A stretch of DNA of 64,000 bases, from positions 1,116,001-1,180,000 of the forward strand of contig NZ_CP042301.2 of the NCBI RefSeq assembly GCF_007922615.2, given 5' to 3'. Shown here piece after piece: positions 21,715-26,713 of this stretch. The position numbers and the translations under genes are program-made. Source of the stretch: Nitratireductor mangrovi (GTDB lineage: Bacteria > Pseudomonadota > Alphaproteobacteria > Rhizobiales > Rhizobiaceae). Numbering within the stretch: the first letter of the stretch is position 1; the number at the start of each line of letters is the position of its first letter. The notes beneath the pieces are model-generated. The model was not told the origin of the DNA. It did no database searches and was given only the letters and a program-made list of their open reading frames with translations.

Positions 21715-22626
21715 ATGGCATCATTTCCCCTGACTGTCATCCGCTCCGCCTTCCGCCTCACAGATCATCTCGCGCCCCGCCTCGCCGGCCGCCTCGCCTT
21801 CGAACTGTTCTGCCGCACGCCCCATCCCGACAAGGTGTCGGACAAGGAGGCGAGGGCGCTGGCGCAGGCCGCACCCTTGATGGCCGAGGCCCGGCTGCAC
21901 CGGCTCACCACGCCGACCGGCTGCATCGCCGCCTATGATTTCCGCCCGCCCGCCGGCACCGAGCGCCGCCGCACCGTGCTCGTCATCCATGGCTGGCGCT
22001 CGCGCACCGACCACATGGTTGCCGTCATCGACGCGCTCAGGCGCGAAGGCGCGCGTGTCATCGCCATCGACCTGCCGGGCCACGGCAAGTCGTCCGGACG
22101 CCGGCTCAACATGGCCAACGCCGTCGAGGCCGCCGGCATGGCGGCCGAATGGTTCGGCCCCTTCGACGCCGTGATTGGCCATTCCTTCGGCGGCGCCGTC
22201 GCGGTCAATGCCGTCGTCGGCTCGATCCAGGGTGTGCCGCCGCTGCCGGCCGAGCGGCTGGTGCTGATCTCGGCGCCGAACTCGATGCCGACCTTTTTCG
22301 CCGAATTCGGCCGCATGCTCGAACTCGGGCCGCGCAGCCAGACGGTGCTCGTCAACCATGTCGAGACGCTGACCGGACGGCCGCTGGAGGATTTCGTCGG
22401 CTCGCTGCAGCTTGCCGAGTTCGAGGTGCCGACGCTGGTCATCCACGCGCCGGAGGACAAGGAGGTCCCGGCCGCCAATGCCTGGGCCTACGAGAAGGCG
22501 GGGCCGCATATCCGCCTCGTCTGGGCGCCCGGCCTCGGCCACCGGCGCATCCTCGCCGCGCCGGGCGTGATTGAAGAATTGACCAACTTCGTCGCCGGCG
22601 AACGCGCACCGGCGCTAGTGAATTAG
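21715..22626 (+). CDS. Alpha/beta hydrolase
   Basis: 303 residues. Oxyanion region VLVIHGWRSRTDHM, nucleophile elbow AVIGHSFGGAVA (Ser in GHSFG), acid in HAPEDKEVPA and catalytic histidine in APGLGHRRIL. The order and spacing fit a serine hydrolase of the alpha/beta fold. Divergent MarR gene suggests induction by a small aromatic or lipophilic compound; substrate unknown. Confidence 0.9.
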   Translation: MASFPLTVIRSAFRLTDHLAPRLAGRLAFELFCRTPHPDKVSDKEARALAQAAPLMAEARLHRLTTPTGCIAAYDFRPPAGTERRRTVLVIHGWRSRTDHMVAVIDALRREGARVIAIDLPGHGKSSGRRLNMANAVEAAGMAAEWFGPFDAVIGHSFGGAVAVNAVVGSIQGVPPLPAERLVLISAPNSMPTFFAEFGRMLELGPRSQTVLVNHVETLTGRPLEDFVGSLQLAEFEVPTLVIHAPEDKEVPAANAWAYEKAGPHIRLVWAPGLGHRRILAAPGVIEELTNFVAGERAPALVN

Positions 22627-22773: not shown

Positions 22774-23166
22774 ATGCAAACGATACGGACTCTCTGGGCT
22801 GGTTGCCTGGCGGCGGTGCTGCTCGCGACCGTGGCACTTGCCGGTCCTCAGGACGATTTTGCCAGGGCACAGGAACTGCGCGAGCGTGGCGATCTCACCG
22901 GCGCCTTCGAACTGTTTCGTTCAGCCGCAACGCACGGCCACCTCGATGCGCGAGTGGAGATGGGGCGAAGCTATGCCAACGGCATGGGCGTACCGCAAGA
23001 CTTCGCCAAGGCGCATGTCTGGTATGACATCGCCGTGATGAACGGCAGTTCGGGAGCAATTTTCGGCCGCCGCAACGCCTTCAAGCAACTGTCGGACTCG
23101 GAAGTCGCAGAAGCCACCGCGCAAGCGCGGCTGTGCATCGAGACCAATTATCTCGACTGCATGTGA
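22774..23166 (+). CDS. Exported Sel1-repeat protein
   Basis: 130 residues, ATG at 22,774 after GGAGGCG. Signal peptide (LWAGCLAAVLLATVALAG), then one or two Sel1/TPR-like repeats (GDLTGAFELFRSAATHGHLD, ARVEMGRSYANGMGVPQDFA, KAHVWYDIAVM). C-terminal cysteines (ARLCIETNYLDCM) could form a disulfide. Function unknown; such proteins usually mediate protein contacts. Confidence 0.82.
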   Translation: MQTIRTLWAGCLAAVLLATVALAGPQDDFARAQELRERGDLTGAFELFRSAATHGHLDARVEMGRSYANGMGVPQDFAKAHVWYDIAVMNGSSGAIFGRRNAFKQLSDSEVAEATAQARLCIETNYLDCM

Positions 23167-23201: not shown

Positions 23202-23251
23202 AGGCTCAGCCCTTCGGCTTGCCCGGCTCGTGCGGCAGGCCGGCCTCCTTC
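23202..23251. repeat. 50-bp direct repeat, copy 1 (duplicate of rhodanese 3' end)
   Basis: 50 bases identical to 26,314-26,363, which contains the last codons and stop of the rhodanese gene. This copy has no gene attached. The two copies bracket the lower-GC three-gene insert. Confidence 0.92.
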
Positions 23252-23307
23252 TATCAACGGGTTCGTAGCCCCGCCCAGTCAGTGTTGTCCCTGAGGAAGA
23301 CTCTCCA

Positions 23308-24138
23308 CTAGGACCGTTCGTCTAGAGGCCGAGCCGAGAAATGGGGCGGAGTCTCTCTGCGGAACTCAAACTCGAGTTGCTTCGAGGTAAGAAGCTGATC
23401 GCCATTGGCCCGAGCGTATCGGACGAAAGATTCGCCGGACCAAGAACTGCGATTGCAGACGTGTCTCAGCAATGGGCGGTGGGGATAGGCCTTAGCATCG
23501 AGATTGGAAAGATGTTGCCATCCGTTGGTGTCGATCTGCTCTGCGATAAAATTGAGTAGAGAGCCGGACGCCCTCATATGATGCACGACTAATTTCCGGA
23601 TTGCACGAATAGCGGCACCAGCGGGATTGGGATTGGGAAGCAAATTTACATCGAGGAATCGTTCGTTCAGCGCTTCTCGCGTTCCCTCTTTCGCTACAAG
23701 ACGGTTCTCGCCAAGCACATAAAGAATAGCGTCAACGTTAAAGAAAGTCGTTTCGACTACATCTTCCAAGCGAGATACATTCTTATGTCCTTCGACATTA
23801 GCCCACGTCTCTTGAGCGCTCCAAAAATCGATTCTAATGCCACCATGGAATTTTAGTCCATAGCCGCCAAACTTGTTTGGTCGAGCATCGTAATGGGAAA
23901 TAACTTGTTTGAACGCTGCGGCGTCTTGAACCTCCACTACGAAGTCCAAATCAGAAGTGAACTGTGCAGGCGGGAGGAAATGAAGCTCGCGCAACGCTCC
24001 TCCGATAAGTGCGACTCTGCCTGCGCCACGAAGGCGATCTAGTGCAACAGCGACCTCACGATCACGTTTTACATATCGACTTCGGACAGAGCGAGCTCTG
24101 CTTATCAATTGCTTGTCAGTGGTAATCGTATCGCCCAT
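23308..24138 (-). CDS. Nucleotidyltransferase-fold protein
   Basis: 276 residues from ATG 24,138 (a start at 24,171 is possible). The nucleotidyltransferase core is VALIGGALRELHFLPPAQF then TSDLDFVVEV, giving GG at 46-47 and Asp63/Asp65, with a third acid in GIRIDFWSAQ. Then a helical region and a long charged C-terminus. It is not a recognisable CCA enzyme; it looks closer to stand-alone or AbiEii-like nucleotidyltransferases. Last gene of the operon; its start overlaps the dNTPase stop by 23 bp. Confidence 0.72.
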   Translation of the reverse strand: MGDTITTDKQLISRARSVRSRYVKRDREVAVALDRLRGAGRVALIGGALRELHFLPPAQFTSDLDFVVEVQDAAAFKQVISHYDARPNKFGGYGLKFHGGIRIDFWSAQETWANVEGHKNVSRLEDVVETTFFNVDAILYVLGENRLVAKEGTREALNERFLDVNLLPNPNPAGAAIRAIRKLVVHHMRASGSLLNFIAEQIDTNGWQHLSNLDAKAYPHRPLLRHVCNRSSWSGESFVRYARANGDQLLTSKQLEFEFRRETPPHFSARPLDERS

Positions 24139-25555
24139 CGTCCAACTGTCTAAATTTGGCCTCGAGATCAATGGCGAAATTCTCCGTCATCCCAGAGACC
24201 ATATCAGTCAGAAGCAGCATCTGGCGATATCGCACTCCTGCGGCGTCGCCCATGCCTGCGGTATCTGACTCATAGCACCGTACATAGTTTTGAGAGATGT
24301 GACTAAACACAAACTCTCCAAAGGGTGTCGACGTCCGCGGAGCCAAAGCAGCGCGGTCATTTCCGTCAAGCTCAGACGGTAGCGGGGAGCACTCTTCGAT
24401 TGACCGCCAGAAGTAGCTCAACAACGAACGGAGAAGATTATCCCCGCGTAGTTCAATTTCCTTTACTGCCGGGGCGTTATACGCGTGGTCAGATGCAAGC
24501 GATTTCAGGGCCTTACATAGGTCCGAAGCTTCCGACGCCTTGATGAGGGACTGCTTAAAGTTCCCACTGATTATAGCATCTGAGTGGGCCAAGAAGGTCT
24601 TGGAGGTTGCGACTACCATCGTCTGGATAACGAATGTGCGATAATACTGAGCGCCAATATCGTTCACCTCGGATACGCTGCGCTTTTCACTCTGAAGTTC
24701 AGAAACGCGAATTTCGATTGCAGTGGCAAGATCCTCATAGTGACCATTGTTAATGCGTCTCAGAGCGGCAATAATATCGTTTATAGAAATTAACTGCTTC
24801 TTAACCGCATCTTCTATGTCAATGACAGAATAGGCGATATCGTCACAAGCTTCCATCAAATAGGCGATAGGGTGTCGCTGTCCCGGCGCTAGCCCTACTT
24901 CCGAAAGAACTCGCTCGGCGTTTTTTCGATCTGCATCAAAATAGCCAAATTTCTTGAAAGCTGGATGCTCTTCTTTTCCTCGTTTTTCAGAGCCGACGGT
25001 GTATTTCATCAACGCCGCGAGAGTAGCGAACGTTAAGTCGAGGCCATGGGAACCTTTTGACACCTGCAATCGTGTCAGTAGCCGAAAGGCCTGGGCGTTC
25101 CCCTCCCAATGCTCAAAATCTGTACGCATCTGTTCAGTTAACGGAACACCCCAACCCTCTCCATCGAATCGTTCGACAAACCAACGGCTGATCGACGTTT
25201 CACCTTGATGGCCAAAAGGAGGATTTCCTAGGTCGTGAGCAAGCCCAACCGACGCTGCAATAGTGGGCGCAAACTCAGTGTTTGGGGCGTTGCCAAACGC
25301 ACACTTTCGTTCGCGCAGTATCTGAGTAGCCAAAGACCGGCACAGATTTGCGACCTCGTGGGAATGGGTCAATCTAGTGCGGACGCTATCGTTCTTCTCC
25401 AACGGAAAGACCTGGGTCTTGTCGGCAAGGCGGCGCACGGGAGCAGAAAATAGGATGCGGTCGAAGTCCCTCTCAAACTCGTTGCGAGTGCTGTCATCGG
25501 TCTTTTCAACGCGCTCACCTTCGGAGAATCTCTTGTTGTTGTACAAATCGCCCAT
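24116..25555 (-). CDS. dGTPase-like HD-domain deoxynucleotide triphosphohydrolase
   Basis: 479 residues. RDFDRILFSAPVRRLADKTQ and VFPLEKNDSVRTRLTHSHEV begin the fold; the metal-binding HD set is His in THSHE, HD in GLAHDLGNPPFGHQGE and Asp in EACDDIAYSVIDIED, all present. Enzymes of this family cleave dNTPs to nucleoside and triphosphate. Some relatives protect bacteria by depleting dNTPs on phage infection. ATG at 25,555 preferred; a TTG at 25,573 would add six residues. Middle gene of the insert operon. Confidence 0.88.
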   Translation of the reverse strand: MGDLYNNKRFSEGERVEKTDDSTRNEFERDFDRILFSAPVRRLADKTQVFPLEKNDSVRTRLTHSHEVANLCRSLATQILRERKCAFGNAPNTEFAPTIAASVGLAHDLGNPPFGHQGETSISRWFVERFDGEGWGVPLTEQMRTDFEHWEGNAQAFRLLTRLQVSKGSHGLDLTFATLAALMKYTVGSEKRGKEEHPAFKKFGYFDADRKNAERVLSEVGLAPGQRHPIAYLMEACDDIAYSVIDIEDAVKKQLISINDIIAALRRINNGHYEDLATAIEIRVSELQSEKRSVSEVNDIGAQYYRTFVIQTMVVATSKTFLAHSDAIISGNFKQSLIKASEASDLCKALKSLASDHAYNAPAVKEIELRGDNLLRSLLSYFWRSIEECSPLPSELDGNDRAALAPRTSTPFGEFVFSHISQNYVRCYESDTAGMGDAAGVRYRQMLLLTDMVSGMTENFAIDLEAKFRQLDDGRYDYH

Positions 25556-25627
25556 GCCAATCTCGTTTGCCAATGCACTTAAAACGTTCTCTTTCAGCGG
25601 TTTGTATCATAAGTGAGTGGTGGCACT

Positions 25628-26119
25628 TCAGAGTTTTTGAATTGCTGTTCTTATTTCTTTGGTCACATCGCGCACGCCTTGTGCCATCCAAACACTATCC
25701 CGCAGCATGAATTTGCTGCTGTTCGTGTGCGGAACATAAGTTGCCTGCTGCTCGACCACGGAGCGAGGTATGAGCGCCGCCCGTATCACATTGAAGTCGT
25801 CCTCAAACAATACCCCGGCGAGCACGTCAAAGTGGCCGCCGACAAGGTCACGGACGGCTGATAACTGACGTGACTTGTTACGTTTGTGGATGCGTCGTCC
25901 TTTGATCTGGTAACGCGTTCCATCTTCTCCGGTGGCGTCGAAACCACGCTCGGAATTGGGCGCTTGTTGCCATCCAAATGTTCGGCAGAACAGATACTCG
26001 GCGAAGTCTCCAGTGGGATTGTTGGCGCTTCTGACGATGCTACGCGACCTCAATTCTTCAATTATTTTCGTATGAAGAGCGAGCAAATCCGCCACGGTCG
26101 TTTCATTTAATCGGCTCAA
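25628..26119 (-). CDS. DUF6998-like protein with PD-(D/E)XK nuclease-type core
   Basis: 163 residues, TTG start at 26,119 with GGCAGG upstream. An N-terminal helix precedes NPTGDFAEYLFCRTFGWQQ, then RGFDATGEDGTRYQIKGRRI. Glu41, Asp61 and Gln71-x-Lys73 have the spacing of a restriction-endonuclease-like site (E...D...QxK). The rest is beta-rich (GGHFDVLAGVLFEDDFNVIR). First gene of the operon; 72 bp before the dNTPase ATG. Nuclease activity is inferred. Confidence 0.65.
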   Translation of the reverse strand: MSRLNETTVADLLALHTKIIEELRSRSIVRSANNPTGDFAEYLFCRTFGWQQAPNSERGFDATGEDGTRYQIKGRRIHKRNKSRQLSAVRDLVGGHFDVLAGVLFEDDFNVIRAALIPRSVVEQQATYVPHTNSSKFMLRDSVWMAQGVRDVTKEIRTAIQKL

Positions 26120-26228
26120 ACTGCCTGCCCCGATTAGGTCCCAGGTTACAGAACATATCGCAAAACTTGCATCCTATCTCACGTAGCACAACACACCTAG
26201 AACCACACTTTGAGGATTCTTGATTGGC

Positions 26229-26281
26229 TGGTGCCGCCTACGTGACTCGAACACGTGACCCATCATTACGAACTAGGCGGT
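26229..26281 (-). pseudogene. Truncated tRNA-Thr(CGT)-like sequence
   Basis: On the minus strand the segment has an intact T arm (ACGTG-TTCGAGT-CACGT), acceptor 3' strand AGGCGGC plus ACCA, and an anticodon loop TTCGTAA (CGT, threonine). The 5' side reads CCGCCTAG, which still pairs with AGGCGG, but the D arm and 5' half of the anticodon stem are missing. Too short for a working tRNA; probably a leftover of site-specific integration at a tRNA gene or a carried attachment site. Confidence 0.65.
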
Positions 26282-26313
26282 CGAAGGCGTTGGCCGGGCC
26301 GACCGAAGACGCG

Positions 26314-26363
26314 AGGCTCAGCCCTTCGGCTTGCCCGGCTCGTGCGGCAGGCCGGCCTCCTTC
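26314..26363. repeat. 50-bp direct repeat, copy 2 (inside rhodanese gene)
   Basis: Identical over 50 bases to 23,202-23,251. It covers the rhodanese C-terminal codons, stop and four following bases. The original copy, because the gene reads through it intact. Confidence 0.92.
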
Positions 26364-26713
26364 CAGGCCGAGAACCCGCCCTCGACATGGCTGACGCGTT
26401 CCAGCCCCATGTCCTGCGCGGTCTTGGCCGCCAGCGCCGAGCGCCAGCCGCCGGCGCAGAAAAAGACGAAGTGGTTGCCGGTCGCGAACAGTTCCTTGTG
26501 ATAGGGGCTTTCGGGATCGATCCAGAATTCCAGCATGCCGCGCGGGCAGTGCCTGGCTTGCGCGATACGGCCTTCGCGGTCGAGTTCGCGCGGATCGCGC
26601 AGGTCGATGAAGGTCACGTCGTCATTGCCGAGCAGCCCGGCGGCGTCGGCCGGAGCCAGCGCGTTGACCTCCGCGTTGGCTTCTTCGAGCAGCGCCTTGT
26701 AGCCCTTTTTCAT
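26318..26713 (-). CDS. Rhodanese-like sulfurtransferase domain protein
   Basis: 131 residues, single rhodanese domain: VTFIDLRDPRELDREGRIAQ, HCPRGMLEFWIDPESPYH, and the active loop FFCAGGWRSALAAKT with catalytic Cys87, then VEGGFSAWKEAGLP. The CxGGWRS loop marks the single-domain type that handles sulfane sulfur. Its 3' end is the site of the neighbouring insert and remains intact. Confidence 0.92.
   Translation of the reverse strand: MKKGYKALLEEANAEVNALAPADAAGLLGNDDVTFIDLRDPRELDREGRIAQARHCPRGMLEFWIDPESPYHKELFATGNHFVFFCAGGWRSALAAKTAQDMGLERVSHVEGGFSAWKEAGLPHEPGKPKG

Follow-up and report, generated by a model that had tools for sequence, protein, structure and literature searches.

A predicted Clover-type and BisI-family defence cassette between direct repeats of a rhodanese 3′ end in Nitratireductor mangrovi

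Introduction

The described systems closest to the locus considered here are the Clover operon, the BisI family of endonucleases, the CIMEs and the islands found at tRNA-Thr(CGT) genes. In PMC12265719, Clover is a gene pair with the same members and the same order as in the present cassette, which shares with it the HD and HE catalytic residues, most of the dTTP- and p3diT-site residues of CloA, and the acidic triad of CloB. With respect to Salmonella CloA, the dTTP-site residue Y452 is F in the window protein, and the p3diT-site residues T25 and N181 differ. Unlike Clover, the cassette has a BisI-family gene preceding the pair, and Clover activity at this locus is predicted. The BisI family, including Eco15I and NhoI (PMC11347163), shows full-length similarity to that additional gene, with the same catalytic E, D and Q-x-K residues; in contrast to those enzymes, the window gene adjoins a Clover operon, and its specificity is predicted.

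The CIMEs (cis-mobilizable elements; PMC5704250) resemble the cassette in carrying accessory genes between two repeats of a gene 3′ end, without integration genes; no integrating relative with the att-like sites of the cassette was found in 59 genomes, viral_contigs and phage records. Islands at tRNA-Thr(CGT), for example in G003, contain the same 3′ half of tRNA-Thr as the cassette, from the anticodon loop to CCA. In contrast to these islands, the cassette lies away from a tRNA gene, has no integrase, and carries a half copy that is decayed.

The locus was examined in a stretch of 64,000 nucleotides of N. mangrovi contig NZ_CP042301.2 (hereafter the window, in which all positions in Table 1 are counted).

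Results and Discussion

Boundaries and composition of the insert

The two direct repeats that bound the insert lie on the same strand, are identical at 50 of 50 positions in the window sequence, and are separated by 3112 bp from start to start. Each consists of the final 46 nt of the rhodanese ORF, stop codon included, followed by 4 nt; a chance origin is ruled out by the 50-bp length. The original prediction of a perfect repeat of the rhodanese 3′ end, with a three-gene insert that could be placed to the base between its copies, was thereby confirmed. The GC content, calculated per 150 bp, is mostly 41–58% within the insert versus roughly 60–75% in the surroundings. This lower GC, together with the absence of the insert from relatives, also supports the proposed insertion of foreign DNA.

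The insert contains three co-oriented genes, all on the minus strand, plus the 3′ half of a tRNA-Thr(CGT), which is the sole tRNA sequence in the window, no whole tRNA being found there. An Rfam search at the insert borders gave no match at E 0.5, and promoter and terminator scans returned nothing beyond the level of shuffled sequences. A transposon with target duplication was considered and rejected: no inverted repeat of at least 18 nt joins the insert ends, and no transposase is present among the three genes. A length of 50 bp is, moreover, very long for a transposon target duplication. A hairpin across the rhodanese stop codon does not rise above shuffled flanks on either side (118/1000 for the right flank, 127/1000 for the left), and so favours neither flank as the native one.

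Table 1. Features of the insert and its flanks (positions in the window)
Feature	Position	Strand	Basis or remark
Alpha/beta-hydrolase-like gene, adjoins the rhodanese gene in relatives	21715..22626	+	named by eye
sel1-repeat gene, left flank	22774..23166	+	at this place in its own genome alone
Left repeat, orphan copy of the rhodanese 3′ end	23202..23251	-	50/50 match to 26314-26363
Insert, 3062 bp	23252..26313	-	repeats as bounds, lower GC, absence in relatives
CloB-like nucleotidyltransferase, 276 aa	23308..24138	-	invariant acidic triad, CCA-adding fold
CloA-like dGTPase, 485 aa	24116..25573	-	322 bits to 9p8t, site residues, TIGR01353
BisI-family modification-dependent endonuclease, 163 aa	25628..26119	-	Eco15I 107 bits, NhoI 79 bits, PADLOC mREase_II 220 bits
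tRNA-Thr(CGT) 3′ half, anticodon loop to CCA, one-base deletion, att-type remnant	26229..26272	-
GC-rich stretch, 41 bp, tRNA remnant to right repeat	26273..26313	undefined
Right repeat, in-place rhodanese 3′ end (last 46 nt + 4 nt)	26314..26363	-
Rhodanese-domain gene, intact	26318..26713	-	PF00581 65 bits

Identity of the cargo

Homology and conserved motifs indicate that the cargo, left unnamed in the original prediction, is very probably a Clover operon accompanied by a BisI-family endonuclease. The CloA-like protein matches the dGTPase family models TIGR01353 (317 bits) and PADLOC dGTPase (243 bits), and reaches 190 of the 400 bits of the NCBIfam antiphage dGTPase model, which is under the cut-off of that model. 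Its top solved relatives are 9p8s–9p8v (314–322 bits, with 9p8t at 322); the remaining solved dGTPases score at most 198 bits, and the stand-alone Shewanella enzyme 9p8w gives 92 bits. The entries 9p8s–9p8v are interpreted as the CloA structures that PMC12265719 reports. The codes read 8P9S–8P9V in that preprint and 9p8s–9p8v in the PDB copy; since 38 of 39 residues checked coincide once an offset of 2 is applied, the printed codes are regarded as a slip.

Identity to Salmonella CloA amounts to 180 of 446 aligned positions, about 40%. The binding sites were compared in an alignment of the window protein, Salmonella CloA, four other dGTPases encoded ahead of a CloB-like gene, and a control set of 28 dGTPases from 29 loci (L034–L062, one of which has no long enough ORF). 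All six catalytic residues (HD motif and HE dyad) are kept in the CloA-like protein, as are 8 of 10 p3diT-site residues and 7 of 8 dTTP-site residues, whereas the 25 full-length controls, three truncated ones not being counted, keep at most 6 and at most 5, respectively. Because the controls share several of the ten residues at the p3diT site, the discrimination there rests on F41, N75, Q311 and R314; at the dTTP site it rests on Q172, K256, S418 and N420.

The start of the CloB-like gene overlaps the stop of the CloA-like gene, by 23 bp. Its product has a CCA-adding fold; the structure 3aqm is that of PcnB or poly(A) polymerase. The CloB active-site motif [D/E]h[D/E]..h[D/E]h is present, with D63, D65 and D104 invariant in 14 of 14 sequences. 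The protein is 31% identical over 192 aa (E 2e-29) to the partner in Phaeobacter, and the CloA beside this Phaeobacter partner is 50% identical to Salmonella CloA. The CloA–CloB pair also occurs in G413 and in G276, on a prophage contig and on a Phaeobacter plasmid. CloB profile matches were obtained in 4 of 394 family genomes (the host included, one match being weak) and in a single one of 385 class genomes, which is that of the host; no CloB was confirmed in genome_contigs. For the genome with the weak match (G166), tblastn detected neither CloA nor CloB within the stretch read.

Two further arrangements of the pair were observed. In G413 and the Phaeobacter plasmid pP14_b, CloA–CloB is preceded, in the same order, by genes for DUF5131 (Gp37/Gp68) and for a product that the plasmid annotation calls TcmP (L097 5836–10243; L129 3860–8147), which is a possible four-gene form of Clover. 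A 44-kb viral contig contains an internal CloA–CloB pair, followed by genes matching an N6/N4- and a C5-DNA methylase (L106 8500–13563).

Regarding the BisI-family protein, the alignment, read by eye against the family motif as given in PMC11347163, shows that the catalytic E, D and Q-x-K are kept as E41, D61 and Q71–K73, and that an H-T pair occupies the position of H-V in Eco15I and NhoI. Relatives at E ≤ 1e-3 number 1140 among 1222 candidates; no BisI-family gene was found in viral_contigs. On a Loktanella plasmid (L128 6001–8513), an unannotated BisI-like stretch has a recombinase gene and a tRNA-Met adjoining it, a neighbourhood that fits island cargo.

Collectively, the insert is best explained as a horizontally acquired phage-defence cassette with a putative anti-phage effect. 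The signal made by CloB (p3diT in Clover) would hold the CloA dGTPase inactive; dTTP raised by phage would switch CloA on, and dGTP would be destroyed. The BisI-family endonuclease would depend on 5-methylcytosine and cut methylated GCNGC sites, cleavage of GCNGC that carries several modified cytosines being characteristic of the family.

The tRNA-Thr half copy

The tRNA remnant sits 41 bp inside the right edge of the insert, between the cargo and the right repeat. Compared with the host's own gene, it lacks one base and carries substitutions; to a Sinorhizobium tRNA-Thr it is 95.6% identical over 45 bp. When the native 41-bp flank of the rhodanese gene was sought in eight relatives, by 16 local comparisons, nominal matches arose on both sides and so favoured neither, namely G003 (p 0.006) and G275 (p 0.036) on the right, and G275 (p 0.004) on the left.

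In this family tRNA-Thr(CGT) is an island site. Among the matches listed, 3′-half copies occur in at least six of 151 related genomes (G003, G063, G069, G113, G130 and G827; L164–L169), where they start at the anticodon loop or up to about ten bases before it and lie 7–40 kb downstream of a whole tRNA-Thr(CGT); both copies were inspected at the sequence level in four of the six, whereas for G113 and G130 this inspection covered the half copy. In G003, which belongs to the same genus as the host, a tyrosine integrase is located between the whole tRNA-Thr and the half copy. Close to the tRNA-Thr(CGT) gene of the host itself, at a distance of about 270 bp from its 3′ end, are genes for a large serine recombinase and a DUF2924 protein (L100 5702–7953).

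In view of its tRNA-Thr 3′ half, the cassette probably represents a fragment of a tRNA-Thr island, in agreement with the earlier idea that the insert derives from something larger. The cassette looks like the carrier of an island edge, though without such an island around it. Cassette DNA in plasmids is limited to 12 records, covering at most 13% of the insert, of which seven match the BisI gene and five the tRNA piece.

The insertion site in relatives

In relatives the rhodanese and hydrolase-like genes are convergent. They lie within about 90 bp of each other in 22 of 44 related genomes, the gap being measured from the rhodanese stop to the aligned end of the hydrolase. Among the first four genomes they are neighbours in three (G002, G003, G035), and G001 is rearranged. 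The 40 further genomes were the best-scoring of the others among the 103 that had a match in 297 searched: 19 have a gap of 10–87 bp, and 16 yielded no hydrolase in the stretch. In the remaining five, which is 5 of the 24 with the hydrolase found (L187, L191, L195, L207, L212), the junction holds 0.45–1.9 kb of other sequence; a long repeat was found at none of these five inserts.

The gap in the host's own genome contains the sel1 gene and the cassette. The original prediction of an empty site in relatives is supported. In addition, the sel1 gene is missing from this place in the relatives where the two genes are neighbours. A word-based protein search gave no further homolog of the sel1 gene at E ≤ 1e-3, and Sel1 matches in 199 family genomes are partial and mostly 30–40% identical; given both, it is uninformative as a native marker.

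Route of entry

A perfect repeat ending at the 3′ end of a gene is the usual mark of an integrase, which counts against capture by homology. The simplest account of the repeat would be a decayed or satellite integrative element resembling a CIME, in which an integrase, since lost or acting in trans, joined an attP identical to the rhodanese tail to the chromosomal tail, the repeats being attL and attR; a related integrase could still mobilise the cassette. The 50-bp repeat at a gene 3′ end, the restored gene and the identity extending to 4 nt past the stop are all consistent with this account. PMC5704250 describes decayed elements in which attL and attR are retained, and eight PF00589 genes are encoded elsewhere in the host genome.

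However, a recombinase is absent inside the insert, as had been foreseen, its three genes being of defence type, and no PF00589 integrase lies within the 64-kb window. A different att-type remnant, that of tRNA-Thr, is present close to the right edge. Furthermore, a second copy of the genome's own tail of at least 22 bp downstream of the rhodanese was found in 0 of 59 genomes (19 + 40), in a comparison that reached up to 20 kb downstream, or less where contigs end sooner (down to 2.7 kb), and that includes some distant rhodaneses which may be paralogs. The best partial second tails reached 21 bp (90% identity) and 20 bp (95% identity). A tail-derived pattern gave nothing in viral_contigs, and phage records yielded three weak matches, to Streptomyces phages, at E 0.1.

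The 50-mer was also sought in other genomes, as the original prediction had proposed. A second full copy occurs in 1 of 61 genomes, that of the window itself; the runner-up in this set, a separate tail match of 34 bp with 88% identity, lies in G046 on a contig other than that of its rhodanese. An exact scan of genome_contigs, a collection that may omit the window's own genome, found none. The rhodanese end as a recurrent integration site thus has no support in this sample. Taking these observations together, the CIME-like element is a possible but somewhat doubtful explanation. It is unlikely that the locus represents an integrase-less 3.1-kb mobile defence unit (Clover plus BisI), moved in trans, built from tRNA-Thr island debris and employing a new attachment site at the rhodanese 3′ end.

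Duplication in place was also considered. A staggered break in the rhodanese tail would have been filled in and joined to a foreign fragment, or a polymerase would have switched to foreign DNA and returned 50 bp upstream, the repeat being in either case a copy of the host's tail. This is the best account of the bases common to both copies, which share differences from the congeners G001 and G002 (3 differences to G001 in 46 nt), and Ku is encoded in the genome. Nevertheless, a conspecific donor explains the shared identity equally well, duplication in place does not explain why the repeat should end immediately after the stop codon, and no such repeat accompanies the other inserts at the junction. 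This route appears distinctly improbable.

Recombination anchored in the rhodanese tail has about an even chance of being the route of entry. The cassette would have broken out of an island integrated at tRNA-Thr(CGT) and entered the tolerant junction of the convergent hydrolase and rhodanese genes. Either one end would have recombined by homology within the rhodanese while the other underwent illegitimate joining at a point 46 nt ahead of the stop, or a circle with a rhodanese tail would have been inserted by a single crossover; the tail would thereby be duplicated and the rhodanese left intact. With tail-anchored capture, the identity would end 4 nt past the stop because two related tails part there, and the lack of reuse of the tail site would also be explained. 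The uptake of other sequence at this junction, without a repeat, in 5 of the 24 genomes with the hydrolase likewise speaks for this route.

Comparable events have been reported. In E. coli, single-crossover duplications of 109–950 bp (sequenced in 14 clones, with 56 of 60 clones positive by PCR) were more frequent than the expected deletions, according to PMC3240628, and a one-sided homologous insertion leaving 3′ ends behind has been proposed for Vibrio arrays in PMC5361080. In both articles, homology-facilitated illegitimate recombination is described as rare. A donor with the cassette beside a rhodanese was not found. Of the two routes originally put forward, site-specific integration and homologous capture, the former is so far unsupported by the second-tail, viral and phage searches and by the tRNA-Thr att remnant, and capture is at least as likely.

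Conclusions

The cargo adds a new member to defence families already described, and the evidence does not establish the rhodanese end as a new integration site. The locus carries a caution, in that a perfect repeat of a gene 3′ end is not necessarily an integrase site. It also presents defence genes that seem to outlast their island. As a compact and well-bounded alphaproteobacterial Clover operon beside a methylation-dependent nuclease, it is well suited to asking whether nucleotide depletion and the cleavage of modified DNA cooperate.
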